A stretch of DNA of 64,000 bases, taken from assembly GCA_022829145.1 (NCBI GenBank), contig CM040762.1, positions 23,492,436 through 23,556,435 of the forward strand. The letters are read 5' to 3'. The stretch is from Albula goreensis (Eukaryota; Chordata; Actinopteri; Albuliformes; Albulidae). Positions 18,801-52,300 of this stretch are shown piece by piece. The position numbers were made by a program, and so were the translations under genes. A model generated the notes under the pieces. That model ran no database searches. It was given only the letters and a program-made list of their open reading frames with translations, and was not told the origin of the DNA. How positions within the stretch are numbered: position 1 is the first letter of the stretch; each line of letters opens with the position of its first letter.

Positions 18801-21800
18801 GTGGTCAAGGCCAAGAGCGGTGTCTTATGACGGAGCAGTGGATACTGATAGGAAGTGGCTCTCTGCCCTCCCTGCTCTGTCCCCTGTCCCCTATTCCCTA
18901 TCCCCTGTGCCCTATCCCCTATCCCCTGTCCCCTATTCTCTATCCCCTGTCCCCTATCCCCTATTCTCTACCCCTGTCCCCTATCCCCTATCCTCTTTCC
19001 CCTGTCCCCTATCCCCTATCCTCTTTCCCCTGTCCCCTATCCTCTATCCACTGTCCCCTATCCTCTTTCCCCTGTCCCCTCTCCCCTGTCCCCTATTCCC
19101 TGTCCCTTATCCAGTATCCTCTATCCCCTATCCCTTTCCCTCTATCTCCTATCCCCTGTCCTCTATCCCATACCCCCTGTCCTCTGTCCCCTTTCCTCTA
19201 CCTTCTATCCCCTATCCCCTATCCTCTATCCCTATCCCTATCCCCTGAGCCCCATCCCTTATCCCCTGTCCCCTATCCACTATCCCTTTTGTGTGTCCCT
19301 TAGCCTCCATCTCCTATCTCCTGTCCTCTATCCCATATCCCCTGTCCCTATTCCCTGTCCTCTGTCCCCTATCCACTATCCCTTCTGTCCTGTCCCTTAT
19401 CTTCCAACTCCTATCTCCTGTCCTCTATCCCATATCCCCTGTCCCCTATTCCCTGTCCTCTGTCCCCTATCCTCTATCCTCTATCCTTATCCCCTGTGCC
19501 CTATCCCTTATCCCCTGTACCCTATCCCCTCTCTCATGTCCCTTATCCTCCATCTCCTATCCCCTGTCCCTTTTCCCCTATCCCATGTCCCCTTCCTCCT
19601 CTCCCCTGTCCCTTATCCCCTGTCCCCTATCCACTATCCCCTTTCTCCTGTCCCTTATCCTCCATCTCCTATCCCCTGTCCCTTTACCCCAATCCCATGT
19701 CCCCTGTCCTCTCTCCCCTGTCCCCTACCTCCTCTCCCCTGTCCCTTATCCCCTGTCCCCTCTCCCTGCCTGCAGAATCAACAGGAACCAGGCCCACCAG
19801 CAGAACCCACAGGGCATCTACAGACATGGGCCCCGAACGGGTCACCTGACTCTGACTGTAGTCCAGAGCTGTCTATGTCCATCCCCGGCCAGGCTTGGTC
19901 AGGCGGAGCTCCGCCCACGTCTTTCAATGACACATCTCTGGAACAGCAGTCTTGTTCCTATTTATTTTATCAAAATATACTTTTACCATTTGTGAGCCAA
20001 ATTTTAGTTTGCTTACCATTTGCTAGACAGACAAAAATATTTAAACAAACGCTTATACATGATGAGTCGGTGAACAACATATTAAAAGCTTCAAGAACTG
20101 AAGAGATTTTTCTGATGCTTATTTCCAGGTTATATGCCCAGTGTAAACCCTATTTTCACTTAGATGTATTCCTCTTGTGCTGGCTGCCACATTCAAATGA
20201 TTTATTTTACAAAATGGTGTCACTGACATTAACAATATATTCCAAGAGATCACAGGGCAAACAACCATGAACTGTATATATTGGATTCAGCTCCAGCAGT
20301 CATGTTGGACCTTCCAGACCAGCCTTTGAATGTAACCCTATAGTGACATTATGATATTCTCACCAACTGAAGCTGAATGTGAAATTCTATAGAAATGTCT
20401 CTCAGAAATCTTCCTGACCTCATCACGAGAGTGTTTTATTTCCCTCTCCTCAGCCTCCCTCTCTTTTCTCCTCATCCTGCATCCTCACAGACCTCCTTAA
20501 CTCTCCTTGCCCCTCACTTGCTACCATTACTGTGTGTTTGAAATCTTCAGACAGGATCTCGCTTTTAGCTGTTAAAGGATCTTTAGGAAACGTCTATGTG
20601 TCTGAGTTCAGTTCTCTCCGCCCTTACCCCTATCTGTCACTGTGTCTCTATCGCTACCGGAAAATCCCACACTGTGTTTGTGATGTTTGCTTCAGTGAAA
20701 GCTGAAAGTGGCACTATCAGTTAAGAAATGGAGAGAATCAAATCGCTCTCTTTTACACTGTTTACATTGACGCTTTACTTAGTTACGCTTGTTACTTTTT
20801 ACTTAGTGTGATGTTTCCGACAACTGAGTGTGTGAGAATGTAAAAATCAGGCAGTCTCATTTTTAGGGGGCCACCTTACATGAGAGACCACACATTACAT
20901 GAGAGACAGCACATTTGTCATAAATCATAGCAGAAAATTCTGAATCAATGGCTCTGCAGCTTGCAGTCCCATTATTTGCTTTGGAATAGTTATATTTTGA
21001 CAAACATGTAAACCTTCTCGTAGACATTAACATGAAAGGCATTGCATTTTGTGCATTTCTACAGTTTGTTCATTATATTTTTAAAACTGTCTGTCTCCTG
21101 CCTGTTTCTACAGTACACTGTACATTGATATATAGTATGTTTTTTCCACATAATTCCTAATGTGAGTGAGCAGAAAGTTATAGACGTTTGTACAGGTTTT
21201 TATGTTTATTTGTTTGCTCAGGTTGATGGAGGCGGCGCTCACTAACATTAACCAAACTGAAGAATGTTCACAGGGCCCCACAGTTCACACGCTCATGCTT
21301 TTGGTGGCCGCGTCATGGCCTTCTAAACTACTCAGCATCCTTATCCAGAGATCACACATCAAACATTTGACTGGAAGTTCATTCAATCATAAATATGCAG
21401 GTTATTTTAGTCTATGGCTTGCAGTTATTTTACAAAATGTATGGTATGTTACTGGCCTTGACCATTACAATATAGTAACACAGTGCAATCTGCTCATAAG
21501 GGCTGACTGTGTAACAAGTTGGCAGTCACAGAGAGTCGGGCTAATCAGCATCACAGAGCTAACTGTGCTCTGGGTCTCCCCACTCTTACCATTACCACAC
21601 TTCACTTTGACACATGAACTTTATGGTAAACGTATTTGATAAATGATAAACCTTTGGGCTGTCCTCTCTCCTCTCTTCTTTCAGCGGCCAAGGAAGAAAA
21701 GGCTACAGCGCCACCTCCTGGTGAGTCTACACACAACTTTTATAACAACGGCAACAAAACTCTTGCATAACTTTGTTGTAAATGCAAAAACACACAATAG

Positions 21801-22004
21801 AAATACAAGAATTTCATATAAATGTTTGTTATCATGAAACGTCATTTTGAGGGATCAGATTGTAACATGCTGTTTAAAACTTTCTTTCTGTTTTCTTTTT
21901 TTTTTTTCAGGGAAAAAAGAGGGTGAGAGAAGCCTGCAGTTTGCCTAACCATGTGTGTGGATGTGTGTCTGATATGTGTGTGTGACTGTGTGTGTGTGGA
22001 TCTT

Positions 22005-22048
<44 letters not shown>

Positions 22049-22194: not shown

Positions 22195-22227
<33 letters not shown>

Positions 22228-22553: not shown

Positions 22554-25500
22554 AAGTGTGTGTGTGTGCATGTCTAACCATGTGTGTGGATCTGATTGTG
22601 TCAGATCTTGAGTGTGGATTCAAGCCAAACTCCTGCTGCTTGTCCACATGATTCCAACTTCACACCTGTGTGTAACATCTGTGTGTAATTGTCTCTCCTC
22701 ATTCAGAAAAGCCCATAGAGGAAGAGGGTAAGGGCATGCTCTCACACAGCACAGAAGTGGCCTTTCTGTGGGGATGAGACTGAGAGTGATCGCTGGGTTT
22801 GCACGTTGCCCTGTAGTCAGTCACACAAACGTCATGCTCATTTTGACCAGTCTTGCATTAAACCTGTATAAGATACGTTCCGTTTGATCAGCAGAGGTTT
22901 ATATTGAAACAATGTGGAATACACACAGTAAAAAACATTACGTGTGTGTGTGTGTGTGTGTGTGTGTGTTGTCTCCATATATCATTGTACCATTGTAGTC
23001 TCTGTTATATTGTACCATTTCATTTATACATTTCATTTTACATCTTCACCAATATCTGCACCTTAATTGTTTCTTTTGACATAGAGAAGAAACCAGAATC
23101 TGAAGGTAAGAGAAAGAAACAATTTGCATAACCATTTAAGTCCGTTTTGTGAATGTGTATGTGAGTGTATGTATGTGTGTGTGTGAATGAGCACAAATAC
23201 CTACGCATTACTCTGCCGATACACGAGTGTCAGACCGTGATGTTGAAACCCTGTCTTTCCGTTGCCAGAGGCTCCTCCTTCAGATGAGGGTAAGCGGTAG
23301 GTCAGGTGGAATGTGCGGATGCGGCCCGCTGCACGCGTGCAGATGTATACAGCTCCGCGTATACATGCCCTGTCAACTCAAATGGGTTCTTTCTCAAGTG
23401 ATCCCAGGCCCTTTACATTTGCATTACGAAATTGCATCGAGGACTTTTGTTTCAGTTCTTCTGATCCTGTGGACTGATGACATCGTTTATGCTCACCGAG
23501 GGGGCCACTCATTAGGTACACCTACCCAAGTCAAAAAGACGTCGAAAATGTGTCCCCCGGGATTCGCCATGTCAGTTGTGGTCACTGTTTGGGCGGAAAT
23601 ATCGGGTGTACCTAGATAAGTGACTTCCCAAGGTGTATGCATACAGGTGACTGTATGCATGTGAAATTGTGGGTGTGCCGGTTTACTGTAAAGGTTTGTG
23701 TATGTGTGAGAGAGAGAGAGAGAGAGAGAGATGGGAGTGTGTGTGTGAGAGAGAGAAGGAGAAACGCATGTTAGGGAGAGCATGTGTGCACTGTATGCTT
23801 AAGCACTATGAAATGATGGAGGAGGAAAGAGGGTGCGCGCGCTCCTGTTTCCATTCAAGTTGTCTTTGCTGTTCATTGGCTGTTCCCAAACCAGCCTTTT
23901 CTTAGATTATATCTGTTTTTTTATTCGGTTTTGGTTAAGAAAGACAGTAAGTACAGAATTTAATATATACCAATTTTTTATCATCTTACCTCTAAAAGTC
24001 ATCAAATGACTATGTTCATATGAGCTGAGAGGACATATGAAATTGATGGTGGTGATGGTATTGACATTGCCTTAACATAAATAAAATTCAAATCTGTATA
24101 ATGCTAAAGCTAACTAAATTATGTTTAAGTATAAAAATAATAATAATAATAATAATAATTAATCACCATTATTATTATCTGGGTCCAAGCATCACAGGTG
24201 CTGGGAACCCTCTTATTTTTGCTTAGAGTATTGTTTTTATTATTTTTTTTTTCTTCTTTCTTATTTCTCCTCTTAAAGTATTTTCTATACTATATCCTCT
24301 TTGGCATATAGGTTCCAAATTTCACCCACTGCCCAGGAACCAAAAATGACATAATTTGACCACATGATGGCGGAATAACAACAAATTTTACATTTGGGCC
24401 CTTAACCTCTGAACAATAAGTCGTAACGACAATTTTCCCCCCTGGATTTCAAAACACATCTATCCATATAAGCCACATCCATTTAGGCTGTTTTGCATTT
24501 TATCTAAATAGTTTTTAGGTTTTTCTCCAACAACTTTAGTCTAATCATCAGAAGATTGTGCTGATGCGTATTTGGTCCAAGCAGGAAAAGTTATTTCTTA
24601 GTTTTTTTTTTTTTTTTGATATTCATTATGGTTTTACTGCAATGCATTACAACAAATTCTAGCTTTCAGTGAAACTGAAAGCATAACTCACCAAAGGTTT
24701 GTCAAATCAATGTGAAACTCAAACCACGGGGTCTTGTGCATGGTCTGAGCATATGTACAGAGGCACCTTAAGTTCCAGCAATAGGTAGCACTATTGTTCC
24801 AACAATAGGTAGCAATGGTACAAAGTCTATATCTCAGAATCAGCTGCATGGATTTGTCTGAAATTCTTTTCACCTGTTCTAGGATAATGTCCAATTATTT
24901 GTATAAAATTTGGTCATGGTTGGCGAAAAGGGGCATGGTTTAAAAAACATTTTTATCAATAATGCAGTCAAAAGTTCCAAAAATCATAATAATTACATTG
25001 TGGGTCCCAGAAGGTTGTTCTTGTAGTGTATAACAAACGTCATTTCAGAGGTCCATCACTGTGATTTTAAAAAATATGTGGAAATAATTAATGTCTACCT
25101 CTCCATGAGTCTTCATTCAAATGCTACCAAAATTGACAAAAAGTTTGTCTAATTGTCAATTGTGTTGGCTTTGGCATCATTGTTTGTACACAGTCATGCC
25201 AATAAGCATTATTAAATTGATTGTTTGGATGCTAAATATGAACAAATGATGTTTCAGAAATGACAAATGGTGAAGCGACAGTAATATTCAATGTCTGATT
25301 GTAATTTGTACTGTAAACATTTTTTACAACATTTTTATATTTCACCGAATGCTTGTTTAGACTTAACAAAAATATTTTACAGTACAACTAAGATCAGCAG
25401 AATGTATGATTTTTCCAAAATTTTAGTAACATTTTAATTGCTGCGAATGTTTGAAGTTTATTCACTCAAAAATCCCTGAGTTTGGCCAATGTCATTTAGA

Positions 25501-28500
25501 TTCCTCAACTTGTATGAAGACCCATACAAAGCCATTTTCTCAATCGCTGAAACAGTAAAACCACTGCTTCATGGATGCAATGGAGCTGAGTTTAAATCCT
25601 AGGGCAGACAAGTCTTCCTGGTTAACACTGTTGTTGTGCAAAAGTGGTCAGTTAATTCAGTTACGTTACAAACAACATTTTGGGAAATCATTTTGATTTT
25701 ACAAATAATCATTCTCTCAATAATTGCCTATACCCATAGTACGTGGACACTCTCTTCCTTTGTATTTTCTTTTCCTTGATTTTCTTTTCACCTACATTTT
25801 AATTGTTGAAAGTGTTTTAAGTTTATTCCCACAACAATGTTCCAGCTTTGCCAATGTCACTTTGTCACCCAAAGCTGTCAGAAGGCACTCAGAATGTCAT
25901 GTTTTCAATGGCTCAGCTAGTTAGATACTTTCCTAAGGATGCAATCGTCTTCGGTTTGAATCCTAGTATTTTCTAATCATGCGCATTAAGTGTTTGGATC
26001 CCCTAACCTGCCACTTGTGGCCACATTAACTACTATTATTAATCGGCACCAAGGTAAGTACGGCAGGAGGAGTAAGGAGACAGTTGGGTAGTAGTGTTGT
26101 GGGTGATGTGGGCAGTTGGGCAGTAACGTTGTGGAAGAGCTGGAAGAGGCGGGTGGGATGGCAGGCAGGAACGCTGCAGGCCACGGATGTGCATGTGTGA
26201 TTGTTCATAGGGATGATGTTCTCTATCGGGTCAGACAGTGACACACATGACTTTACCATTATGCACAACTTCAGCCTGACAGGAGGGTCATAATCTGTAT
26301 TCAGACAAATAGTTACAGACCAAGGACTGAGCCTTGGGGTACACAAGGTTTCTCTGTGTGACAAAAGAAGGCTCAGCCAGTGTCCCAGGCCTTCAGCCCA
26401 GAAGGGCTGGCCAGTGGCATCCAGAACTTCATACTGACCCAAGAGGGAGGGAATGAGAATGTATGTGACAGTGCGGTAGGAATTCCTCTCCGTCGAGAGA
26501 CCAGCACAGCAGCCAGCCTGGCCCGGGTCCAGGAAATAATTCCCTTAAAAGAAATGACAGCAGCTTTTGAAAAGCCTGCTCGAGGTTTCTGAAGAGGAAA
26601 GGGATACGGGGAAAATTGACAGAAAATTTGGACTTGTGACAGATCAATAGAGGACAGACATAAGCCTGTTTGAGAGCTGGTGCGGATTCAGTCATAAGAG
26701 GATTTTTATCCTGCTAAAAAACATGCCTGAACTTCAGATTATAAGCAGTATGTTTCCTTTGTGTAAGCATCCTATGCCACATGTTGGGTGTTAAAACCAA
26801 CATCTATTTTATCACCCTGGTTGCTGTCTCTGATGCAACAATTTTTCCAAGTCCTGTATGCATGTTTTTTTCTTTCATTGTTGAGCTGGTGTGTGCGTAC
26901 GTGCGTGGGTATGTGTTTCCTTTGGTTTTGGCATATACATTTGTGTTGTGTATGTGTGTGTGTGTGTGTTGTCAGGCACATGTTTACATCAATTATTGTT
27001 GTTACTGTAGTGTCATTCATATATGCAGTAGTAATATTGATACCTTGATTGTTTCCTTTGATAAAAGAGATAAAAACTGAACCTGAAGGTAAGAGACAGA
27101 ATCTATGCTCAGAGTCAGTGAATGTTACGCGTACGAACGTGTCTGTGTATGCCTGTGACAGGGTGGTGTGTCTGTGTGTTTTTGAAAGCGTGTTCCTTTT
27201 CACCATGAATATGTGACTGCATGAATACACATTTTAATAAGCTTGTAGAATCATCCTACACCTTGCTCTGATTTCCTCATAATCCTATTTTGTAAGGGGA
27301 GAAACATGAAGAAGCAGTGAGGAATGGATTGGATGTTTACATTTGTATTCGGCATGTAAAATTTTGGATCATTTTTATACGGTGTGTGTGAGTGCGCGCG
27401 CGTTTGTTTGTGTTCTTAGGTTTTGCTGTATGCATTTATGATTGTGTGTGTGTGTATGTGTGTGCATGAGTGTAGTGCGGAGACTGCATAATTATACATG
27501 TATGTGGATACAATTTTATTTTTTAGAGTCACCCCCAACTTTGCATTCTTCTCTTACAAATAGTATATAGAGCATTTTCTTACTTTTCTGAAAGCATTTT
27601 ATACTATCCCTCCGCTGATTTCCCTTCCTTTGGGCTATTTTGAACACTCTGCTCTTTGTGTTGAAGTATGACAGTATGGTGGCAAATGATGATGGTTATG
27701 ACTGGAAGTAGGCCACGGTTCTACCGATGTGTTGCTTTCCATTTCTTCATTGAAGGTAGACAGTATATTTAAAGAACAAACCTGGATCCCTCAAAACTGC
27801 TGTTTATGATAGCCTTTGATTGTCACATTGTGTGTCCATAAATGTAGTTGAGAGACTGCCTGTGACATTGGTTTGACAGCTGGATGGATTTGTGTGTTTG
27901 GCAATTATTAAAAACCAACACATTTTAATAGTTATATGTACTAAAATGTTGTATATGTATGGTTTATTTCTGTTGATAGAGAAGGCGCCTGAAGCTAAAG
28001 GTAAGAGTGTGAAAATCTGCACGGTCGTCTGACTGCGTGCTTGTGTTGCGTGTGTTTATGTAACACTCTTGGAGTGTAGTGTTTACTTTAGAGAGCAAAG
28101 AAATCGTTTGATTGGATGATAGCATAAGTAACTTGGTTTTTCCATCCTAAAAGGTGTACTGAAGTTTAGCCAGACTTTATATTTTAAAGTTTATATAGTT
28201 TTTATTTATGTACATTTTTTAAATTTATGCCAGCATGTCATTACACTTATTGTATTAATCTACATTCACTGAGCTCAGCTACCGTCTTTCAAACTTTTTA
28301 TTCAGCGTCAGAGGCACCTCCTGCAGAGATTGGTAAGAGGATTTCAGATTACATTTTTTTTTAACAATAGAACGGGGTATGCGTGTTTTGGTTACTGGTG
28401 TGTTGTGGGAAAGTTCTGAGTTGGCATGGAATGACCCTTGTGTAGGTATGCCCACGTCCTGTTTTTGGTTTGCCGTGGGTCACGTCTCAAGTCTAAACAA

Positions 28501-30958
28501 TGTGTAAATGGTCACAAATGAGACATACAGCAAATATGTTTTTAAACAATTGCCAGTGTTGACTGTAGTCAACTGATATGACCGCAAGCAATGGCTGAAC
28601 AAAAACATCGAAACTTTTTTTTGTATAGTCTGTATCTAAAAATCATGCACATATTCTGACTTCCAAAACATAAGGAGCTGAACGAATGATTTTGGCAGTG
28701 AATCAAACTCCTCTGTTTGAAACTTCATGCTAGGTGGATTTCCCATGGTTAAGGTTTGGGTCTGCGAGAGTAAATCTTTATCTGTCAATATTTATTTTTA
28801 TCCGCCCTTACGTTGGCTATAATGTGATCTGTTTTATATCATTTCCGTGGCACTGTGGGGATGGGTGTGGGTGTTATAACATTTCTTCCAGGCCCTGCTG
28901 ATGTGGTCGATTTGGCTGTCTCTTCAAAGTGAACACACTCAGAGGGCACCGTTTTATGCAGCACCCATGCCACTCTCAGAACATAAGGGCAAACATTCTT
29001 GGGGCATACATTTCATGCATTTTTCTCCATATTCCTTGAACACAAAAACATTTCCTTCATTAATACGTCCTTGTGAGCTTGACAAAATTAGCTCTGAACG
29101 ATGTACCGGACCTAATAATGTTCGAGGAATGTTCACATAATAACACAATATATCAATCCCCAAGGAAAATATGACCTATTTTTTTGTAGTTCTGGGAACG
29201 TTTTCTGTTAACTGGGCATAAGCACAATGAAATAATTCAATACATAAATAATATTCAGCTTAATAATATATATCCAGGGTCCAGCTGAACTAGATTTGCC
29301 TAATTTTGTTAATTGTGGAAAATCTATACATGTTCATTATGAAAACCATTCAGTGAAATATGACATGAATTATCCTGTCCTGAGTGGAGTTAAAGTGAGA
29401 ATTCAACCCGTAGAAAGTGTTAATATACAATATTTCTAATATTTAGTTTTGCATTGAGAACATAAACAGAGATTTTGGCACCAAAATAAAATTGGGTACC
29501 TACAAAAATGTTGGCAACACGTGTAAGATCCATGTACGCCATGTTCTGATCTGTTACATCAAAATCCTATCTTTTCAGCTTCAGAAGCGCAACCTCCAGA
29601 AGAGGGTAAGAGTTTGTTGTGTTGAATGTGTGAACATGTAGGTTTTCGAAGTGTATGCTACTGTATAGCCTTGTGGAAATGTTTTTCCGCGGTGGAGAGA
29701 TGGTGGAGGTCTGCGGGGCATTCTCTGCTCATATACTGTGCGTTTTGCAGTACTCGGGGGGTTGTGTGGAAAGAACGACAGACCCACCGTTTCCTTGTTC
29801 GGTTCTGGTTCTCATCCTCAAGCGCCTGCTACCTCTCCTTTCGCTGTTTTCTGCCCCTTATTTCCCCCACCATATAGCCCCAAGCCTTTATGGGGCCCTA
29901 AGCAGAATTTGATCCCCCGTCGCCCTCTGGGACGCTTCAAGTGCTCTTTGGGGCCCTCTGGTGGCCACGGGGGCCCTAAGCAGGCGCTTAGTTCACTCAT
30001 GTCTCGAGCCAACCCTGCTGCCATTCCTTAGACTCTTAACTCTGACAAGACGTCAGTCTTTCACCCAGCGTACTCTAACTCACAGGTGCAGCAGCTCGCA
30101 CTTCACCATATTTTATTCATTGCCCTGCTTTCAGTGAAGTACGACAGGAGCAAGCTCTGAGGGACAGATAATATTAAGCTTAAAGAGTGGTATTCCTAAG
30201 AGGGCTAGAAGGACAGTTTATCTGAGACATGAACACGATTGCAATATATTCAAAAGGGGCATGTACCTTATGAACTATATTATTAGTGAACAATTAAACT
30301 TATGTCCATATTTATCCGACACTTCTGATAGTGGGTTATTCTATTACACTGTATATAAATATACTATATACAGGACCCAGTTTTGTCCTGACCTAGCACT
30401 ACTTTCCATTTGGAATATTTGCATATTTAGTTTGCATATCATTGTAATTAACCTGATAACTTGATCCATGGACATACGATGCATACATACAGAGTAATGT
30501 GAGGTACCAGAGTGGCATAACATTAACATTGGATTAACATTGGATTTCCACACACATGCTTCTACAATGGTTGACCTTCTTTTGTTTTGATATTCCACAC
30601 AACGTTTGCAAAGACTGCATCGAAATGTCCCTTTTAATATTTCTCCTTCAGATGCAGGCTAGGGTGCAACTGAATGTCGTATGTACATTTCACTTTGCGG
30701 TTGTGTGTGTGTGTTTATGCACTTATATGAGGGTCTCAGTGAAGTCTTCTCTTATTGAGCTCTCGTCCCCTAATGAAATCCTGTCTTTCAGTATCCGAAG
30801 CTCCACCTGCAGAACAGGGTAAGAGCTCTGCGGAGAGACCATGATGTCAGGATGTCTGTTTGTGTGCTCAGATACAGTACTTGTGTGCATGTATCATAGT
30901 GAGTGAGGAATGTGTGTTTGTGGAAGTCGGGGTGTGTGATGGAGACTGTGTGAAAACC

Positions 30959-31050: not shown

Positions 31051-34000
31051 AGAACAATATGAATACACCGGGCTGAAATTCCCCTCTTTGAAACACTGTG
31101 TTTCAGTCTCCGAAGCAGTGCCTGCAGCAGAGGGTAAGCACTTTTTGGCTGTCTGCATGAATGAGTCTTCATTTTTCCTTTTTTGGATTAAGAGTAATAC
31201 AGTTATTTTGATGAATTATAAATAAAACATATATTACAATAAAAGTTCAAATTATTATATAAAAAGCACAATTGGATATGACATTGAAAAATGTGATGCT
31301 TCATTTGCACAGTCCTGATTAATTAAAGTAACACTTGATTGCCGTTTGATTTTGAACTTTTATTAACATTTTGAAGTTCATGGTGATTAGCGCCTTTCAA
31401 ACGAAGATCTGCGATCGGCTGGGAGAAATCCGGCCCTCCACGGGCCCCATGTTGCCCGGTGGGCTAATTACAATTATTAAGCTAACGTGCGAATATATTT
31501 AGTTTTCATGCAGTGCATAAAACCAAGTAGCAGTCAAACAGGGGTTCTTCAGTCTTCTCCGCCAACCCAAAATAATCAGCGCTGTAGCCTGCAGTCGTGT
31601 CCACATAATCATTTACGTGCATCAACAGGAGGAGATAGCATGCTGTCTCTGTGGTAGACTCCAGACATGGAGCCATGAGTTAAAACTATGGGTTCAGTGC
31701 AGTACCTGCTTTAAATGTACTCGTAAAACTGTCGGAGTTGTTGTTCTGAGTTCATAAATAATACCAAGCTCCATATTTATTCCGTTCTGGGTGTAGCTTG
31801 GATGGCTACAGAAATCTGAAAGCTGCCATTTACATGACATTCAGGAGGCAGTCTTGACAGTTTACATTCCTACACAATATCCATTTATACAACTGGATAT
31901 GAACTGAATTAGTTTGGTACCCTCTGTAACACAATATTCACACTGCTACCCCTTCAGCTTATTACTGTACCCTCTGTAACACAATATTCACACTGCTACC
32001 CCTTCAGCTCATTACTGTACCCTCTGTAACACAATATTCACACTGCTACCCTTCAGCTCATTACTGTACCCTCTGTAACACAATATTCACACTGTTACAC
32101 CTTCAGCTCATTACTGTACCCTCTGTAACACAATATTCACACTGCTACCCCTTCAGCTTATTACTGTACCCTCTGTAACACAATATTCACACTGCTACCC
32201 CTTCAGCTCATTACTGTACCCTCTGTAACACAATATTCACACTGCTACCCCTTCAGCTCATTACTGTACCCTCTGTAACACAATATTCACACTGCTACCC
32301 CTTCAGCTCATTACTGTACCCTCTGTAACACAATATTCACACTGCTACCCCTTCAGCTTATTACTGTACCCTCTGTAACACAATATTCACACTGCTACAC
32401 CTTCAGCTCATTACTGTACCCTCTGTAACACAATATTCACACTGCTACACCTTCAGCTCATTACTGTACCCTCTGTAACACAATATTCACACTGCTACCC
32501 CTTCAGCTCATTACTGTACCCTCTGTAACACAATATTCACACTGCTACACCTTCAGCTCATTACTGTACCCTCTGTAACACAATATTCACACTGTTACAC
32601 CTTCAGCTCATTACTGTACCCTCTGTAACACAATATTCACACTGCTACACCTTCAGCTCATTACTGTACCCTCTGTAACACAATATTCACACTGTTACAC
32701 CTTCAGCTCATTACTGTACCCTCTGTAACACAATATTCACACTGCTACACCTTCAGCTCATTACTGTACCCTCTGTAACACAATATTCACACTGTTACAC
32801 CTTCAGCTCATTACTGTACCCTCTGTAACACAATATTCACACTGCTACACCTTCAGCTTATTACTGTACCCTCTGTAACACAATATTCACACTGCTACCC
32901 CTTCAGCTCATTACTGTACCCTCTGTAACACAATATTCACACTGCTACCCTTCAGCTCATTACTGTACCCTCTGTAACACAATATTCACACTGCTACACC
33001 TTCAGCTCATTACTGTACCCTCTGTAACACAATATTCACACTGCTACCCCTTCAGCTCATTACTGTACCCTCTGTAACACAACATTCACACTGCTACACC
33101 TTCACCTCATTACTGTACCCTCTGTAACACAATATTCACACTGCTACCCCTTCAGCTCATTACTGTACCCTCTGTAACACAATATTCACACTGCTACCCC
33201 TTCAGCTCATTACTGTACCCTCTGTAACACAATATTCACACTGCTACACCTTCAGCTCATTACTGTACCCTCTGTAACACAATATTCACACTGCTACCCC
33301 TTCAGCTCATTACTGTACCCTCTGTAACACAATATTCACACTGCTACCCCTTCAGCTCATTACTGTACCCTCTGTAACACAATATTCACACTGTTACACC
33401 TTCAGCTCATTACTGTACCCCGTAACACAATATTCACACTGCTACCCCTTCAGCTCATTACTGTACCCTCTGTAACACAATATTCACACTGCTACACCTT
33501 CAGCGCATTACTGTACCCTCTGTAACACAATATTCACACTGTTACACCTTCAGCTCATTACTGTACCCTCTGTAACACAATATTCACACTGCTACACCTT
33601 CAGCTCATTACTGTACCCTCTGTAACACAATATTCACACTGCTACCCCTTCACCTCATTACTGTACCCCGTAACACAATATTCACACTGCTACCCCTTCA
33701 GCTCATTACTGTACCCTCTGTAACACAATATTCACACTGTTACACCTTCAGCTCATTACTGTACCCTCTGTAACACAATATTCACACTGTTACACCTTCA
33801 GCTCATTACTGTACCCTCTGTAACACAATATTCACACTGCTACACCTTCAGCTCATTACTGTACCCCGTAACACAATATTCACACTGCTACCCCTTCAGC
33901 TCATTACTGTACCCTCTGTAACACAATATTCACACTGCTACCCCTTCAGCTCATTACTGTACCCTCTGTAACACAATATTCACACTGCTACCCCTTCAGC

Positions 34001-40000: not shown

Positions 40001-40751
40001 GTGTGTTCAGTACTCTCAGTCTGTCAGTGAGTTCAGCAGTGTGTTCAGTACTCTCAGTCTGTCTGTGAGTTTAGCGGTGTGTTCAGTTCTCTCAGTCTGT
40101 CTGTGAGATCAGCAGTGTGTTCAGTACTCTCAGACGGTCTATGAGTTCAGCAGTATTTTCAGTACTGTCAGTCTGTCTGTGAGTTCAGCAGTGTGTTCAG
40201 TACTCTCAGTCTGTCTGTGAGTTCAGGAGAGTGTTCAGTACTCTCAGTCTGTCTGTGAGATCAGCAATGTGTTCAGTATTCAGTTGAATATCATCCAGTT
40301 TATTGTCCAGGGAGTGAACATTGGCAAGTAGGATGGATGGAAGAGCAGGTCTTGTGGGGTTAGCCTTTAGCCTATCGTTGATACCTCCTTACTTTTACCC
40401 ATATGGAAGCCAGTATAGTAGTCTTCTTTACCCCAACCCAAAGCTGAAATGGTGAAATACTTTCATTTCACTTTAGATCCCAAACCTGCAGAGTCAGGTA
40501 AGACATACAGATTATTTGCACTGGAACAATGTGAGTGAGTATTTGAGTATGTACATGTACAAACTGTATGCACTTTATGGGTGACATTGTGTAAATGCCA
40601 TTAAACATATGGTATTTTCTGTCTTTTTTGATTATATGGTTATATATCATAGACCTTAATTATGTGCATGTCTCATTTATGTGTATGAATATATATATAA
40701 GAAACACACACACACAAACATACACACACATGCCCACACACACAAAAAACA

Positions 40752-40833: not shown

Positions 40834-42984
40834 CCCACACACACAAAACACACACACACACACACACACAGAGGCCCCTTCCTCAGTCACACATACCTGA
40901 TATAGAAATGATCGTCTTTTTGCCCTCAGAACCGGCTGCATTAATTTGGGCCGAGTCAGAAGCGCAGCACAGGGATGCTGGCCCATGTAGACTCCAGTGT
41001 GTCCCATGGCTGTCACAGAATTGCTGTGATCCTAACTAGAAATGGCTAATAGCTCACATGCTCCAGTCCAGTGAGACCCGATGACTGGGGAGGACTCTGC
41101 CTTAAGTGGAATCACTGCCATGTTCCACTAGTGGCTGCTGAACCAGAGATGTTTCTAGACTTTTAGCACTACTGGGGCACAGGCCCCCAGTGCCCACATC
41201 CTCACACTTGCAGTTTATGATACATTTTTAAAAACTAGTCATTTTTCATGATCATTTACTGGGGCACAACAAATTATTATTGGGCCACGTGCCCCAGTAA
41301 ATAGGTTTGTTGACACCCCTGACCCAAATTATTATAGACTAGTGGCATAGAGCATTATTTTACTAGAAAATCCCATTCGCAAATGATACACTGCTGCCAT
41401 AAATCACATATACACATACATACATACATATATATGTATATACAATATATAGAGCAAGAGAGACAAGAGAGAGAGAGATATATGCCCATAGTTCCACACT
41501 CTACACTCAAACCCTTTGTACAAATATTTTCTGTCATTATCAGAGGCAAAACCATCTGAAACTGGTAAGAGCCACATTGCACAGAGGTTGTGTGGGAAAA
41601 GCAGACTGCATTTCCGTATGTGTCCGCACGTCCTGTATGTAAACGCACATAATGTGTGTGTGTATGCATATGTAAGAGTGTGTTTGGATACTTTTGAGTA
41701 AGTGTGTCGTTCTCAGTCTCCCCATTAATTTGTCAGTGTTCTGTTGTAATTACACACTGCAGAGTGGCTTAGAGGCTGTGGAAGTCATCCAGTACTTTAT
41801 TATGTAGATAAGTGTGGTGTGTGTTAGTTTGCCTGTTTGTTTTGGCATACGTGGCTGTGAAATGCCACATGCTGTATATTATTACAATGTCTGTTTTAAA
41901 ATACTTGCCTTTGTTTATCTAGAGGCCAAATCTGCTGAGGCAGGTAAGAGACAGGCTGTAATAAGCCTGTAATAAGGTGTAATAAACTATATGATTATGT
42001 ATGCATGTATGTGTGTGTTTATGTGTGTGTGAATAATGAATGTGTGTGAGTGAAAAACAGAGGAATAGAATGTTTTTTTGTAAGTGTATTATTTGAGTAT
42101 ATTTGTTATGGCATGAGTACTTCCTTGAATCTGGATACCTCTGAATTAGTCACTGTCTCCCTGTCTGTCTGTGAGTTCAGCAGTGTGTTCAGTACTCTCA
42201 GTCTGTCTGTGAGTTTAGCAGTGTGTTCAGTACTCTCAGTCTGTCTGTGAGTTCAGCAGTGTGTTCAGTACTCTCAGTCTGTCTGTGAGTTCAGCAGTGT
42301 GTTCAGTACTCTCAGTCTGTCTGTGAGTTCAGCAGTGTGTTCAGTACTCTCAGTCTGTCTGTGTTCAGCAGTGTGTTCAGTACCAGTCTCAGTTTCAGTC
42401 TGTGAGTTCAGCAGTGTGTTCAGTACTCTCAGTCTGTCTGTGAGTTCAGTCTGTGAGTTCAGCAGTGTGTTCAGTATTCTCAGATCTGTCTGTGAGTTCA
42501 GCAGTGTGTTCAGTACTCTATCTGTCTGTGAGTTCAGCAGTGTGTTCAGTACCCTCACTCTGTCTGTGAGTTCAGCAGTGTGCTCAGTACTCTCACCCAG
42601 TCTGTGAGCTCAGCAGTGTGTTCAGTACTCTCAGTCTGTCTGTGAGTTCAGCAGTGTGTTCAGTACTCTATCTGTCTGTGAGTTCAGCAGTGTGTTCAGT
42701 ACTCTCAATCTGTCTGTGAGTTCAGCAGTGTGTTCAGTACTGTCAGTCTGTCTGTGAGTTCAGCAGTATGTTCAGTGCCCTCAGGCTGCCTGTAGGTTCA
42801 GCAGTGTGATCAGTACTCTGTCTGTGAATTTGTCAGTGTGTAATATTAACTGTCAGCAATCTACTCCAAACCCCTGTTGCTGAGTTCCACTGCTTTTTTT
42901 CCTCTCATTATCAGAAGCTAAACCTGCAGAGACAGGTAAACCTGCAGAGACAGGTAAGAGGCTCTTTGCACAAAGGTTGTATGG

Positions 42985-43069: not shown

Positions 43070-44969
43070 GTTATATGGTATGTTATGAGTACATTTATCA
43101 GTCTAGATAACTGTGAGGTTGTGACTGCCAGCTTGGCTGTGAAGTTTCCTCTGTCTCAGTATCAATGACAGACAATCACTCAGTCCTAGATTCAATGAGT
43201 GTGACTGGTTGGTTGAACAAGACTGCCAGTCAGGCTGTGCCAGTCAGGCTGTGAGGTGTATAATTCTGAGTTTTTGTATCTGTGTAGAATTATGAAAGAT
43301 ATTGTCTGAAATCCTGTTTTATGGTACTGTTCTTTCAGTGTCAGAGACCAAACCTGCAGAGTCAGGTGAGAGCATAGGACTGATGTGTGTAGGAGTATAA
43401 GAGTTTATACATAAGAGATCATTTTACCTGTTTCTGTGTCTATAGTTGTCTGCTGTTCACGTTTCATTGCCTGAAACTGTTTCAAACTCGTTGCCATTAA
43501 GAGGAGGGGTCTTTATTCCATTTAAATATTGCTGCTTTAATTTATATTCTCGCACATTTATTAAACTCTGTAATTCTTTGTTAAAGTTGTGCGTATAATA
43601 CCTTTAAAAGTTTTTATTTAGGTAATTTATGTGCACACATAACTTGTTTCACTTTATATATATTGTCTTCAAACCTGCAGGATCAGTAGTGAGGTTAAAT
43701 CATGGAAATTGTGATTTAATCAAAAGAGGAGACTGAAGCAAAAACCACACACACACACACAAACACACACACACTACACACACACACATACATCACACAC
43801 GCAACACTCACACAAACACACAAACACACAAACACATGCATGTACAGACACAAACACACACAAACACAAATTCACAGACACACACATGGACAGACACACT
43901 CACCAACACGTACACACACACATACACACACAGCCCAATGGCACTGAGAAACAGCGCACACACACTTTGACACCACTGGTGTACAAATATGGGCTGAGAT
44001 TCAATCAACATTTGCCCTTACCTGTGTCTCAATAAAAGCTGAGACACAGGTAAGGGCAAGTGTTATTCTTTATCTACACCAACACAGTTCAGCAAGTTGA
44101 GCAATCATTAAACTAAGTCATCTGAGTATGGCTGTAGAGAAAAACACTTTTATTCAGTTACAAACCATAGTCAAGGACAAATGACTGAATCACAGGCTTG
44201 ACTACATGCATTTATATAGTCTGAGGCTGACGATATGCATTTATAAACGGACTATAAATGAGTTTGTATTGCCAGGTGTATGTTTATGTATGTGCCGTCT
44301 TTGTACTTTCATATATATTTTGTACAATGATCATGTAAGGGTTCACGTCTTTCTGCGTCAGTCTGTGACTCTCGGTAACTCTGCAACTCAAGCAGTGTGT
44401 TCTACAACAACCTGTCAGTCCCACAGTCTATCAGACAGTGTGCCTGTGGGCTTTCGTCCACTGAAACAGACTGTGTAAGTCTGGGGGGATATTGTACAGT
44501 ATATTACAGTATGCTGGTAAAGTCAGCAGACATAGAATTTCATAGCTTCTTTTTAAAATTTCCTTTCAGTACCAGAGGCCGTACCCGCAGAATCAGGTAA
44601 AAGAGACAGGGGTGCAGTGCGTATTGAGGCGCTGTTGTGTACGGGAACATGCTTGTGTGTTAAAGTACGCATGCATTATTTGTGGGTAACTATAGATATC
44701 CGTCTTTCATTCTATGGTATACACTGGTAGTAAGTGTATGTATTTTTGCCATTTTTAAGAATGTACGTTTTTGTGCTCATGCACATGTTTATGGATGTGT
44801 ATGCTGTGGGTACATTTCTCCATCTGATTATATGGGAATGCTGTCGTGATTCTGACAAGCCGGTAAACTCTCCACACATTCTTCTCCTACCCCTCATTAG
44901 CGGAGGCTAAACCAGCGGACACTGGTAAGAGACGCATCGGACAGAGATGGTGTGGAATTGATTGCTGTT

Positions 44970-45039: not shown

Positions 45040-48000
45040 TAGACATGTGTATCTGTATATATTACTGTATGTGTGCGCATGCAACAGCATTTTTGTATAT
45101 GTTACTGTATGTGTGTGTATGTATGTATTACTGCATGTGTATGTATATATATTTATAAATGTTTGTGTGTGTGTGTATACATTATACATTAATGTATTTG
45201 TGTGTTTGTCAGTATACATTGCTGTGTGTGTGTATAGATTACTGTAAACCTGTGTGTATGCATTACTGTACATATGTGTGTGTATGGTTATACTACTGTA
45301 TGTGCGTGAGTGTGTATGCGTACATTATTGTACATATGTGCGCACGTTTGTGTGTGGGGTTGGTATGTATTGAGTCTGGTTTTCCATCTGGATACCCTGT
45401 AATCAGTGTGTTACCGTAAATCTGCTGGTGAATTCAGTAGTGTGTTTCAATAAAGAATCAAATCAGCAAAAGTATCAATCATTCAGCATTTTTGTCAGGC
45501 TCTCTTAGGTGTACAATTTCATAATTTGACTGTTGTTAAATAGTGGTAACATAATTGCTATATATAGTATTGCAACCTCTGTATTAAAACCTGTTTCTAG
45601 CCAATCAAGAATAATGCATTTTGTTGTGTTTGTCAGAGGTACTCTTAGATTTTTTTGTGACATATGGGATTAGATGTGCATGTATACTGGTCAAGTCCAC
45701 TCAGATCAATTTATTAAGATAACCTCCTTTTATTGTCAGCATTATCAGAGCCAAAACCTGCAGCAACTGGTAAGAGATTACGCAGGCATAGTGTGGAATT
45801 GAAGTCAGTGGGTCTGCATGTTTGTGTGTGTGTGTTTCCGGCGTGTGTGCAAGTTCATGTGTATGTGCTCGTTTGTGTTTATATGCAGGGGGAACAAATC
45901 GGTAGTCCAGGTGACTGAGACGTTTGTATTTCCTGCATGGGCTACCAAATTCCATCAAGTTTAAACCTGGCAGACAACCGAGTCCCTCTCCCAAGTTTTT
46001 TTTTTATTATTATTCCAGCACGTACTTCATATGTGTGTTACTTCGTATTCAACAAGGGGCCCGCTTTGAGAACTAAACCAAAGAACCGGAAGTTACAGTG
46101 CCATCTGGTGGTATCTGTAGTTTATGCCCAAAAGCATGGTTTTCCCAATGGACTTCATTCATTTTTGGCAGTGTATTAAAAATATTTCTCCTCATATAGT
46201 GACATTCAATCTAAGCTCAAAATAAATGTAATATTCCAGACATTATATAGCAATGATCAAGAGCTAGTTACACAGTTTCATTTATCTAAGCTAATATTAT
46301 ATCTAAGCATAATATTCACCAAAATGTATTTACCAAGTTAGCCGGAAAACCAACGAACCCGTTTCATACTCAGGTTAGCTCACTACAGGTTACAATGTGT
46401 GTGCATGTCTGCTGGAAGGCTTACATTATATTTGCCATTGAGGTTTATATGAATGATAATTACCAAGTTGTTGGAAATCTAAAATGCATTTAAGCCTATG
46501 ATATATGATATGATTGCATTGTCAAAAACTGTTCAAATATGCTTTTTTATTCTTAACAAATGTCGGGTCTCTGTTAAAATCATCTCACCAAGCAGCAAAT
46601 TGTTGACAGGATAACTTTTATATTTATGATGATTCTTAAAATGGTGGAATATTTGGTAATGTCCCCATTCCCCTTTTCGTTATTTCTAAGATTAATATTA
46701 CATGTGAATTAATATGTTCCTGTACTTGTCCTTGATAATACATGCACAGAGAAAAAACCTTGGCAGAGAAACCTTGTTAATATATGTATAAGCGCATCTC
46801 AGCTAATCTTTTTCAGAGCCATCACATTAATATTGTGTAATGTAGACATGTTTCCGTTAAGCACTCCAAACCATCATGCTTAAACCTGCTACATTAAAAT
46901 GCATCACATTTCCGACCTTGTATAATGCATGAGCAAATTAATTGAAACTTTCTAGAATTTAACTGTGAGGTTGTGTCACTTATTTATAATGCCAAAACCT
47001 TAGCGTGTTATGCCACCCTATACTAAGAGTGCGTATGTGTAAAAGCCATTGTAGCATTCCATTTCATAATTCCGCATTCACCCTTAACATCGTAAGAAAT
47101 AAAAACCCTCAACAATCATCTTAGAGGACTCAACAACATATTTTAGTGATTAATTAATCTAAATTCCCTAATAGATAGAAACTTTCTTTATCCCGAGGGA
47201 AATTGCAGATTACAAAAATGGCTAATTGTAAAGAGTCACATATTCTGCAGTGATGCTAACTGAGAATCAGTCATTCAGTGAGTCTGTGCAGTTTCCCAGA
47301 GCCTAATTGTGAAACAGTCTGTGAGTGTCATAAATTCTGTGTACTGTGTATCGCAACACATACAATCTTTGTAAATTACGTCTTGCTCAATCTTAAGAAT
47401 GCTTTCTTTCATTTGCAGAAGCAAAACCTGCAAATAAGGGTAAGACAGCCTTATCACGCTGAGGTTGTTTGGGAATTAATATCTGATTCTGTTTATGTAC
47501 GTTTATGTTTACGCATGGATATGAATCACGTGGATTCCTTTGTCTGAATGTATGTGTGCATATGAAAATGTGGAATTATTTGCATATTTATGGATTTCTC
47601 ATGTGGCAGGGTGTTAGTATGTATGTATGTATGTGTGTGTGTATGCGTGTATAGAGTTCTTGTATTGATGTGAGGTGGTTAGTCCATGAATTCAGCGGTT
47701 CTTGTCGTCAGTCATAGACTGTGTTGGTCAGGTCCAATACTTTTTCTCATCTCCTCGTCTCCTCCACTTGTCTCCTCCACTCGTCTCCTACCCCGGAAGT
47801 ATGTGGAGGAAAATAAAAGAGGAAACGAGCAAAAGAGAGGAGGAAACAAGGAGATGAAACGAAAATTGGAACAATTAATCCGATTAGCCCGTCGTCAAAG
47901 TCCAGCTCGGCTGTTGATGAATTTGTGTAATTTTGACTGATTCCGAGGATACCTAAGCCAATCAAAATATTCTGTGTGATGGCATTTTAATCTGGCTGGT

Positions 48001-49271: not shown

Positions 49272-49318
<47 letters not shown>

Positions 49319-52300
49319 ATTATTTGAATGTAAAAAAAATGTACAGGGTATAGATAAACAGATTGTATTTATATCAGGAAAGTATGTATGTTTTAGAATG
49401 AAATATGTTTAGAATGGTTTTGTTGGTTCAAGAGACTTTGGGCATCTTAATTGGCACCCTAATTGGATAGGGAAAAATAAACATGTATCAAATATTGTAG
49501 GTGTGAATTATTAAATATGTTGTGCATTGATTAGTATCTCATCATCACACTAAATTCAAACAGAATTAAACATTTATTCTGTTAAATTCAAGTGTGCATA
49601 ATTGCAGTGGAATGAGCCTTGATGTCTTGGTTGTAATGAGCGTGCCTTTGCCTTTCTTCAGGTATGTAATCAAAAATGCGATCTTAAGGTGTTTACCCTG
49701 CATTTTCCCCTTAGTTACCTCAACCAGATTAAAGGGATGGTTATGGTCAGTTGTTTGAATGTTAAGGTAAACAGTCAGTCCTGATTTGGGCAAGCCTTGC
49801 CTTACATAAATCTGATTTACTCTGATTCCTGTCAACAGGGTGTCGGTAAGTAGGCTGTAAAAGCATGACATGCTGAGATAAAACAAAATTACAATTCAAG
49901 ATCCCTGGAAAAAGTTGTTGATCTCAATCAGGGTTGAAATGTGATTTAAAGGGCCCTGGGGCTCCAGACTCACAGACTGAAAATCTTTTAAAGAGCAGAA
50001 AGTAAATTTGTCCAGTAAGGTGCATTAACTTACTGCAGGAACAGGACACTGGTTATGGACAGATGAGACAAAAGTTGGCATGGACAATCAACTACTGGAG
50101 TAAACTACTTGTACTGACACAGTCAAGCATGGTGTTAATAGTGTTACAGTTTGAGGATGCTTTGCAGCTTCGGGATCCGGAGGACTTGCTGATATTGAAG
50201 GAACCATGATTTTTGTCCTAGTATCTGAGAGTTGGACAGAAAATGTCAGGTGATCCATACTTGAGTTGAAGCTAAAGCCCCACTGGGAAACTTAACTTTG
50301 CAACTGTAAAGTTTACGAGCGGCTTAGTCAAAGTCTAATCTAATCTCCATGGAAACACAGCTCATGCTGGGAAGCCGCTAACGCCACATGTGTCGTAGGA
50401 AGGAGCGAGGCAGAGGTCCTTCACAGTTGCTGTGTGTGAGACTGTTCAATGACCACTTCAGTCATCGCTGCTAAAGCTAGCTTAACCGGTCATTGTATCA
50501 ATGTGGGAGATTACTTTTTCATTGTGGCATTATTTCTTTGATAAGTAAGTGAAACAAATGTTAAATATCTCTATTATTTGTTCACTCAGAGTCTTTTATC
50601 AGATATTGGGTTTTGTTGAAGGTCTTTTAACACAGGAGATGTGACAAAATGTGTACAATCAGATAAATGCTTTTACAAGACACTGTACTGTATTTGAAAC
50701 CTTTTCTCAGAGCAAAGGATGTGAGAGGTGGTCTGTTTTCATGCTAGTCATACTACTACTACTTGTAATAATCATAATAATAATAATAATATCAATGAGT
50801 CAAAGAAAAATGACTTGTACAAATACATGTACAAATATAATATATGTAAAAATATAACATATTTTTATAATCCCAACTGCCCAGCTGCCCCACTGATACT
50901 GTATGTTTTTGTGTCAATCCTTTCAACCATGGAAAGTACATTTTGTATCTTGTGGAAATAGTGACTAATATTTTGTCTAATTTTTCTCTCTCTCTCTCTC
51001 TCTCTTTCTCACAGATGGCGACGTGCCAGCCGATGGTGAGCACTGAGCTTACACAGATATAACACAGTCCATAGCTCAGATTATTGATTTGATCCACTAA
51101 TAGAGTCACATGCTACAAAACATCTTTCGAGCAACTTACCTAAACAAACATTCTACTTTTGCAGCATAGACTGTTCCAGAAAGAAATCCTAAGAGAAGTA
51201 AGCCCTATTAAATGTTATCCTTCACTTTTATAGTATTAACGGTGAGTGTGTCTGTGATCTTCATCCTCTCCAGGGAAGACAGAGCTGACCGGACTCTTTG
51301 TGGAGAGGCCTGAGAGCACCTCCGTCACTAAAGGTGTGAAACTACAGCACAGAGGGGCTCCTTCCTTTATTTACCTGCTTATGTTTACTGTAACATAATA
51401 GTAACGTTTAATAGAAACGTCGTCAACATGCCCACTTGCTCGCTGTGAATTCTCCGGACAGTTACCTGCTGTATTCACACATGGGCTCAATTGGACATTG
51501 CATAGACTTTGTACTAGGGAGCTAGCAGGATGACGTCCGTTTCACGTCCGTAGCGACTGACATTTGCGTTCACACATACAGCTCTGCCAGTATTGTCCGG
51601 AAAAGTTCAGGGTTGCATTGCATGTGTGGAAGGGGGCTTAAGACTCCTGTGTTTAATCGCTAACTGTCACCTACCCATGCACAGACACTGAGTTCACTGC
51701 GGTTAACTAACTAATGATGGTCTGTTGATGACAGGAAAGGACATCGTCTTCGTAGCGAAGGTCGACGGCTCCAACCTGCCCAGAAAGCCAACCCTAAAAT
51801 GGCTGAAGGGGAAATGGATGGATCTGGGTAGCAAAGCTGGCAAGCACCTGCAGTTCAAGGAGACCTATGACAGGAACACCAAGGTGCGCACTATTTCTCA
51901 CACATTTAGCACAAATTATAAGCAAATGGTTATATCATTCAGTGGTTTTCAATGTGTAGCGCATGTTTGTATGTGTTGTAATTTAACAAGAAATTCATAC
52001 ATTAAATAAACATATTGTTTCTTAATTATTTCTTATATTTAGTTAAATATTCAGATAAATGTTTGATACATTTAACAAATATATCATTTTTCTTTTATGA
52101 AATGTTCAATTCCTTAAATGTTTCATCCATGAAGGGATTTGTATTCACATGTGAGTAAATGGAAAGGTATAGTAGATTTGTAAACGCATAAACCTCCCGT
52201 AAATGGGCACCACCTATTACCATAATTCGGACACAGAGGCCAAGTCTGACTCTACCAATTCCCAGTAGGTTAGGCCTCATCAAGTCGTTGGTGCAATGTG

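Follow-up and report, generated by a model that had tools for sequence, protein, structure and literature searches.

Known variable N-terminal regions of sarcomere proteins

In human MyBP-C, about 50 residues lie upstream of domain C1. In sMyBP-C (MYBPC1), a Pro/Ala-rich region stands before C1 and small segments of it are alternatively spliced (PMC5021714, PMC10073172). Much splicing falls in the first six exons of that gene, with variants of about 126-132 kDa, and PMC10073172 describes sMyBP-C as more spliced than fMyBP-C. The hypervariable region of troponin T (TnT), likewise N-terminal in a sarcomere regulator, is often acidic and alternatively spliced (TNNT3 exons 4-8 and a foetal exon; exons IV and V in fish fTnT; PMC4012202, PMC1919359, PMC2447309). 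It modulates the TnT core and is without a known myofilament binding site (PMC4012202); in fish fast TnT, the N-terminal splice forms shift from acidic to more basic during development (PMC1919359). Two further systems are of note: the PEVK region of titin, made of many small exons between folded I-band segments, each exon being recognized by a length of at least 12 nt and a PEVK(A) ratio of at least 0.54 (PMC6469411), and the N-terminal, Pro/Ala-rich extension of myosin essential light chain A1 (ELC A1), which is just over 40 residues long, has a lysine-rich tip (four lysines in the first eight residues) and binds actin (PMC10777021).

A microexon array in a fast-type MyBP-C gene

The window analysed is a stretch of 64,000 nucleotides from Albula goreensis. 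It contains an intact-looking fast-type MyBP-C gene that holds, between its start exon and C1 (51274), 29 exons of 12-39 nt totalling 708 nt, or 236 residues (window coordinates):

4058..4079, + strand: start exon of fast-type MyBP-C, MPEAKKP then G, from ATG to donor GTAAAG (ATGCCCGAAGCTAAGAAACCAG followed by GTAAAG); the Megalops orthologue begins MPEAKKPAAK
21685..21720, + strand: exon 1, like the start of relatives (AAKKDKTAAPP in Megalops)
21911..21922, + strand: exon 2, GKKE
22707..22727, + strand: exon 3, EKPIEEE, like the other-fish cassette EKPAEEE
23085..23105, + strand: exon 4, EKKPESE (EKKTES in Conger)
23269..23289, + strand: exon 5, EAPPSDE, like the other-fish cassette ELPPDE
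27068..27088, + strand: exon 6, EIKTEPE
27980..28000, + strand: exon 7, EKAPEAK
28306..28332, + strand: exon 8, ASEAPPAEI
29579..29605, + strand: exon 9, ASEAQPPEE
30792..30818, + strand: exon 10, VSEAPPAEQ, in the opening pair of a unit that occurs three times
31107..31133, + strand: exon 11, VSEAVPAAE
36670..36690, + strand: exon 12, EKIPDTE
37160..37186, + strand: exon 13, VSEAPPAEQ, nucleotide-identical to exon 10
37414..37440, + strand: exon 14, VAEAVPAAE
38188..38214, + strand: exon 15, VSEAPPAEQ, nucleotide-identical to exon 10
38441..38467, + strand: exon 16, VPEAVPAAE
38990..39013, + strand: exon 17, VEEKPETE
39195..39215, + strand: exon 18, EVKPAED
39325..39345, + strand: exon 19, EAKSAEA, copy of exon 22
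40477..40497, + strand: exon 20, DPKPAES
41544..41564, + strand: exon 21, EAKPSET
41923..41943, + strand: exon 22, EAKSAEA
42915..42953, + strand: exon 23, with an internal 18-nt duplication and a possible alternative donor at 42935
43339..43365, + strand: exon 24, VSETKPAES
44570..44596, + strand: exon 25, VPEAVPAES
44901..44924, + strand: exon 26, AEAKPADT
45740..45769, + strand: exon 27
47419..47439, + strand: exon 28, EAKPANK (EAKPTKK in Conger)
51015..51035, + strand: exon 29, DGDVPAD (EGDVPAD in Conger, DGDLPAD in Aldrovandia)
51274..51333, + strand: first exon of C1, gene model
51735..52468, + strand: other two exons of C1 (51735-51883, 52351-52468), gene model
53154..54911, + strand: exons of the C1-M linker and M-domain (53154-53202, 53579-53599, 53957-54013, 54742-54911), gene model; THB by Pfam
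55294..64000, + strand: C2 onward; the model continues beyond the window to 68572 (window numbering, adjoining DNA)

Exon sizes are all multiples of 3 (13 exons of 21 nt, ten of 27, two of 24, and one each of 36, 12, 39 and 30 nt), and direct reading gives AG...GT sites, phase 1-1 and a final G for every exon. The sequence-only reading had proposed 29 frame-symmetric, phase-1 exons of 12-39 bp within 21685-51035, mostly of 21 or 27 bp and joining into about 240 residues, all of which agrees with these counts; its module size, 7-9 residues for nearly all exons, is corrected to 4-13 residues. As exons 10, 13 and 15 share one peptide and exons 19 and 22 another, 26 of the 29 modules are distinct. 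A candidate 30th exon near 48461-48487 (about SPTPAPTL) was set aside, its acceptor appearing weak by eye.

The assignment to MyBP-C, made earlier from the same letters, is upheld by domains and nearest orthologues, and the type is fast: the Ig/Fn3 domains C1-C10 and the M-domain are present and C0 is absent. By Pfam, the gene model comprises THB, seven I-set and three fn3 stretches; the domain search leaves room for the array only, with no further domain, on the N-terminal side of C1. Its best named matches are 'myosin binding protein Ca' or 'fast-type', annotated fast-type orthologues being nearest, and it shares 88% identity with the fast MyBP-C of Megalops across an alignment of 1,087 positions. 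I-set matches, used as a probe for paralogues, included no MyBP-C.

The array against chance and decay

In a matched scan, 27 distinct qualifying donors were found. Over 200 dinucleotide shuffles the mean was 0.415 and the highest count 3, and the reverse complement gave none. Of the 27, 25 correspond to array exons (exons 6, 11, 14 and 16 fall under the thresholds), one to the alternative donor that shortens exon 23 and one to a minisatellite artefact. Sorted by phase and length, 24 are in phase 1 with a length that is a multiple of 3, and the other eight classes hold 0 or 1 each. A looser scan gave 42 forward candidates; the reverse strand yielded 8, and positions 1-20000 yielded 5. The shuffle, strand and phase controls thus rule out chance or a minisatellite artefact as the source of the array.

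A 21-nt profile built from 28 exons, ignoring splice sites, matched 26 exons and three other places, namely the first half of exon 23 and two weak sites. As background, the reverse strand had 3 matches, positions 1-20000 had 4 and positions 55001-64000 had 5. No clear dead exon copies were found with this splice-blind profile. On this ground, and on the alignment of the body over its 1,087 positions, a pseudogene or decayed array was rejected.

Since all exons end in G and are entered in phase 1, each junction codon is GNN, and therefore any subset of exons reads through into C1. All 465 forward junctions tested among the start exon, the 29 exons and C1 are indeed free of stops.

Duplications and repeats

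Several array exons were added by local duplications: the array contains 0.9-kb copies that are 90% identical, and a two-exon unit is present three times. Clustering by upstream flank joins 12 exons into two groups through 16 pairs, several of them weak, and leaves 17 of the 29 unlinked. Between young copies, exons diverge less than introns in 4 of 6 comparisons and more in 2 (no statistical test), a mixed result that therefore gives no evidence of constraint.

Of note, a (TG)5 run lies within 150 nt of the donor in 10 of the 29 array exons and in 4 of 25 later exons of the gene, and a CA run near the donor in 0 of 29 and 1 of 25, respectively. Random places in the array would give 4.2 of 29 with (TG)5 (p about 0.006); because duplicated copies are not independent, this UG-tract excess is a lead only.

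Fish relatives and a second gene copy

The comparison set comprised 152 proteins, among which the longest cassette-like N-terminus has 82 residues. In the 101 fish proteins beginning with MP, which were used for the length median, a median of 48 residues precedes the C1 landmark, versus 247 in the gene model here; isoform X1 of Megalops, the nearest annotated relative, has 51. The same gene in other fish carries a few cassettes of 5-7 residues that differ among annotated isoforms. Grouping 90 of the 152 proteins by hand gave 16 gene sets from 15 species (Coregonus with two copies). At least two distinct N-termini occur among the annotated isoforms of 15 sets, some reflecting alternative starts and not cassettes, and in 8 sets all isoforms share a single sequence from C1 on. 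Since other fish carry variable cassettes at the same place, the array represents an expansion of the Pro/Ala region of MyBP-C, a region of known kind, and its 29 exons go far beyond the relatives examined.

Charge was compared over 85 distinct N-termini with an MP start and at least 30 residues. In 54 of them the first 14 residues carry a net positive charge, in 29 a negative one and in 2 none, and the remainder is negative in all 85. A basic, possibly actin-gripping tip is thus not constant in relatives, being positive in just 54.

A second mybpc2-type gene of this genome (the C8 copy) has at least two such microexons, located 14 kb and 21 kb ahead of its C1; they encode AAKPAEA and EAKPAVA on the coding strand and are the only two exact matches reported in 932 Mb. 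A protein search restricted to the array (residues 1-262) scored 7,996 candidates, none of which matched at E<=0.001. In the literature, no paper joining MyBP-C with microexon was found, and among the matches listed no such fish array is described in a title or the start of an abstract.

Possible functions of the encoded tail

The joined modules place a Pro/Ala-rich stretch (A 22%, P 16.5%), higher still in Glu (25%), immediately ahead of C1, with K at 10%, V at 6% and a net charge of -43. The array had been called PEVK-like, which suits the titin exon criterion (28 of 29 exons pass; exon 29 reaches 0.43) as well as a titin-like repetitiveness and frame symmetry that were recovered here, but not an acidic Glu/Ala/Pro-rich chain with a free end.

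Our preferred reading is a disordered acidic tail tuned by splicing, not an elastic tether. On this account, in which our confidence is a little above even, the locus is a strongly expanded, cassette-built, Pro/Ala-rich N-terminal region of fast MyBP-C whose spliced subsets would yield a predicted disordered acidic tail with a tuning role. Muscle would splice in differing exon subsets, and the product would be a free acidic tail, disordered and lacking aromatic residues, that could extend up to about 236 residues ahead of C1. Such a tail may form a brush, electrostatic and entropic in its action, whose length and charge would govern the ease of access of C1-M-C2 to the thin filament or to the myosin heads, with tuning by fibre type or stage, as the variable N-terminus of TnT adjusts its core. 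The lack of a database match to the array, the 51 residues of Megalops isoform X1 and the mixed exon-intron divergence of the young copies weigh against this account. As that TnT region has no known myofilament binding site, the analogy offers no direct target.

Alternatively, the exons could be real and mostly skipped, having arisen by recurrent duplication in a repeat-rich region, with a mature tail as short as in other fish. Minisatellites and segment copies do mark an unstable region, the young copies show no clear constraint, no fish protein examined exceeds 82 cassette-like residues, and frame-keeping cassettes would cost little, which would weaken selection against new copies. However, where introns no longer align, the exons have kept their splice sites as well as frame and composition, there is almost no module-like sequence lacking splice sites, and similar exons are found in the second mybpc2-type gene; general skipping seems rather doubtful to us.

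We consider it unlikely that the array is a length-tunable tether, a sharpened version of the sequence-only reading in which the basic tip (MPEAKKPAAK) would dock on actin and the array would be a reach-setting spacer. This would follow ELC A1, whose extension binds actin and has Ala-Pro repeats after a lysine cluster (PMC10777021). The first 22 residues here are net +3, and passing from 51 to 243 residues would extend the calculated contour from about 18 to about 88 nm and the rms end-to-end distance, by a worm-like-chain estimate, from about 5 to 11 nm. Against this stand the inconstant tip charge of relatives, a lysine count of two over residues 1-8 (MPEAKKPA) where A1 has four, and the acidity of the spacer. 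Moreover, the tether of the sequence-only reading needs two anchored ends, and as stated it lacks support: only the 7-residue start exon lies beyond the array, and we know of no second anchor.

A titin-like PEVK spring bearing passive force is very improbable, since small, repeated, frame-symmetric exons with passing PEVK(A) ratios are set against a free N-terminus where load at both ends is required, no folded domain on the N-terminal side, low V and K, and a charge of -43.

As an extension of the splice-tuned tail, put forward tentatively and as possible rather than probable, both mybpc2-type genes may carry large frame-neutral microexon arrays, from which muscle would combine many tail lengths and charges and tune contractility by cassette count; splice-site letters would then also shape composition through the GNN-coded first residue of every module. 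The tails would form a natural series that starts at about 20 residues in some annotated isoforms and may reach 243 here, with a well-conserved body behind them, permitting a direct test of tail length and charge against thick- and thin-filament activation. The locus also illustrates that splice-site and phase rules can allow an exon array to grow while leaving the protein unbroken.

Comparison with known systems

ELC A1 shares with this locus an N-terminal, Pro/Ala-rich extension with a lysine-bearing tip, but the body here is acidic and the lysine cluster is not reproduced, the sign of the tip charge varying in relatives. Titin PEVK is alike in its many small exons and PEVK(A) ratio; it differs in that the array lies at the N-terminus of MyBP-C, with 7 residues beyond it, and in the modules of 4-13 residues that make up an acidic, free-ended chain. 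The likeness to TnT is one of working type only, since the gene belongs to a different family and the variable exons of TnT are much less numerous, fish fTnT having two. The Pro/Ala region of sMyBP-C occupies the same position before C1, with much of the splicing there confined to the first six exons of the gene, compared with 29 exons and 236 residues here. Fish fast MyBP-C ('myosin binding protein Ca') carries at the orthologous place EKPAEEE-, ELPPDE-, EAKPTKK- and EGDVPAD-like modules, mostly as 5-7 residue cassettes. Up to the C1 landmark its N-termini have a median length of 48 residues (101 proteins) and a cassette-like maximum of 82, versus 247 in the Albula goreensis gene model.

The host gene and its microexon array

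The + strand of the window, which lies on contig C22 of a 932-Mb genome, carries a fast-type myosin-binding protein C (MyBP-C) gene that looks intact. The splice model reaches past the window into neighbouring DNA, as far as position 68572, and, without the last C-terminal exon, gives an open protein of 1,329 aa in the order tail, C1, M-domain, C2-C10, with no C0; Pfam matches comprise seven I-set stretches, three fn3 stretches and THB, the bundle of the M-domain. Megalops cyprinoides 'myosin binding protein Ca' matches the gene body at 88% over 1,087 aligned positions, and a tree built with 13 selected relatives, all fish, places the gene within elopomorphs (support 0.999), adjoining Aldrovandia (0.88).

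4058-4079, + strand: start exon
21685-51035, + strand: array of 29 microexons (exons 1-29)
51274, + strand: C1

Direct reading and a scan located the 29 exons, each 12-39 nt long (21 nt in 13, 27 nt in 10) and together 708 nt or 236 residues. All 29 have a length that is a multiple of 3, phase-1 entry and a final G, and their donors are GTAAG (23), GTGAG (4) or GTAAA (2). Of the 27 donors that the strict scan returned on the forward strand, 25 belong to as many of the 29 array exons, one is exon 23's short donor and one is an artefact of a minisatellite; 200 dinucleotide shuffles gave 0.415 on average and 3 at most, and the reverse complement gave 0. Other phase and length classes held 0 or 1 candidates each, against 24 in the array's class, while a looser scan gave 42 candidates forward, 8 reverse and 5 in positions 1-20000. 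The sequence-only reading had described a 29-microexon array before C1, and direct reading together with the scans and the shuffle, strand and phase controls bears it out.

Several other features lie in the introns and flanks:

About 10180-11390, 13930-15060 and 18830-19760, intron 1: more tandem repeats, among them CCCTATCCCCTGTCC-type runs that are long and rich in pyrimidines
Near 12450: TATA-like stretch upstream of the next feature
13062-13160, + strand, intron 1: ATG frame running into a consensus-like donor (AAGTAAGT), where it stops if read through; may be exon 1 of a nested gene, with no Pfam or PDB match
62507-63346, + strand: Pro-rich low-complexity reading frame that runs on from a coding exon into the next intron

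Within the array introns, TG runs occupy 23 bases per kb of the coding strand versus 6 for CA runs, and 10 of the 29 donors lie no more than 150 nt from a TG run; we take these runs to be possible sites for a GU-binding splicing factor.

Growth of the array

Recent copying is visible at several scales. Two 0.9-kb segments (39300-40214 and 41898-42825) are 90% identical, a two-exon unit recurs at 30.7-31.1, 37.1-37.5 and 38.1-38.5 kb with 83-93% pairwise identity, 81% similarity extends over 62 nt around exons 21 and 26, and exon 23 contains an internal 18-nt duplication. Clustering by flank similarity yields one cluster of 10 exons, a second of two and 17 single exons, a pattern consistent with an old array though giving no date for it.

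Two minisatellites also occur here. One, with a 50-bp unit in about 92 copies at 96%, lies between exons 11 and 12 (31917-36492); the other, with a 38-bp unit, is found in two introns (39559-40278 and 42163-42819) and travels with the duplicated 0.9-kb segment bearing exons 19 and 22.

Tail length and composition among relatives

Two protein searches (best 120 of 2,765 and best 120 of 1,170 above threshold) supplied 152 different proteins, from fish wherever a source was named, and the C1 start was recognised in 145. Among the 152 listed, the 101 starting MP have a median of 48 residues before the C1 landmark, versus 247 here, and the longest cassette-like N-terminus is 82 aa; P0064 (121 aa) and P0010 (96 aa) were excluded as unlike MyBP-C sequence. 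Ninety of these proteins were sorted manually into 16 gene sets, a grouping that leaves aside several further species represented by at least two of the listed proteins. By database annotation, 15 of the 16 sets have isoforms with at least two distinct N-termini, part of this variation reflecting alternative starts rather than cassettes (e.g., Labrus, Trachinotus, Chelmon). From C1 onward, isoforms are identical in 8 sets and exist in two or three versions in the other 8.

Some window modules have counterparts in other fish (EKPIEEE and EKPAEEE; EAPPSDE and ELPPDE) or in Conger (EAKPANK and EAKPTKK; DGDVPAD and EGDVPAD). Because of such resemblances, exons 1-5, 28 and 29 are probably the older set and most of exons 6-27 an expansion. 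Standard annotation of mammals under-calls titin PEVK exons, as PMC6469411 describes, and by analogy the relatives may hold more exons than annotated.

The array is rich in Glu, Ala and Pro, with zero aromatic residues and a net charge of -43, a composition from which a disordered chain would be expected. With G as the last base of every exon, all junction codons take the form GNN and any subset of exons stays readable (465 of 465 forward junctions tested are open); the GNN form also leaves V, A, D, E and G as the only possible first residues of a module. Of the 85 different N-termini compared among relatives (at least 30 aa, starting MP), 54 have a net positive, 2 a neutral and 29 a net negative charge over the first 14 residues; the remainder is net negative in all 85, so that the property constant across relatives is an acidic tail of variable length.

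Functional exons or decayed copies

A 21-nt profile, built from 28 array exons and run blind to splice sites, recovered 26 of its training exons in the array region and three other places, one covering exon 23's first half and two of them weak; as background, the reverse strand gave three matches, positions 1-20000 gave four and the window's last 9 kb gave five. Being trained on the array exons themselves, the profile would overlook badly decayed copies; copies lacking just a splice site would be expected to appear, and none was clear in the array region. Introns of the youngest copies have diverged by 4-10%, and each exon comparison shows 0-2 differing sites. Exons diverge less than introns in 4 of 6 comparisons and more in 2, a split that is uninformative on constraint either way.

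We lean, by a narrow degree of confidence, towards an expanded cassette region giving a splice-tuned, acidic, disordered tail, in which inclusion of exons 6-28 is putative. That the exons are real but mostly skipped, leaving the mature protein with a tail as short as in other fish, seems rather unlikely.

Other MyBP-C loci

M-domain/C2 and C1 matches revealed four further MyBP-C-like loci, C8 being 69-82% identical to the window gene by exon, and C25, C17 and C15 51-71%; the weaker M-domain matches (45-49%) on contigs C14, C12 and C1 were set aside. An exact microexon pattern, which the window exons themselves do not satisfy, gave two reported matches genome-wide, AAKPAEA and EAKPAVA, which lie 14.1 and 20.9 kb ahead of the C1 exon of the C8 gene and on that gene's coding strand, and the reversed pattern had no match in the whole genome. 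A looser pattern hit seven places in the window, all within array exons, versus 0 expected. It is likely that the C8 copy also has a microexon array, with these two candidate exons.

Possible action and known parallels

Skeletal MyBP-C has been studied less than cardiac, according to PMC10073172; for fsMyBP-C, PMC5805719 reports thin-filament binding by a C1C2 fragment and no known phosphorylation sites. The array had been read as a PEVK-like elastic or length-tunable tether; its N-terminus is free, which makes it a tail and, only if the tip binds something, a tether. Under that proviso a tether modelled on light chain A1, as presented in PMC10777021, is possible, but it is not the best-supported reading. 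As a free acidic tail, the array could instead act as an electrostatic and entropic brush, an idea of our own and not of the troponin T papers.

Troponin T is the closest working parallel. In fish fast troponin T, a large acidic embryonic splice form gives way to smaller, more basic forms, as outlined in PMC1919359, and the variable region tunes the core, with no myofilament-binding site known for it (PMC4012202). The array, striking for its scale, is an enlarged form of a type of region already known and does not constitute a new kind of system.
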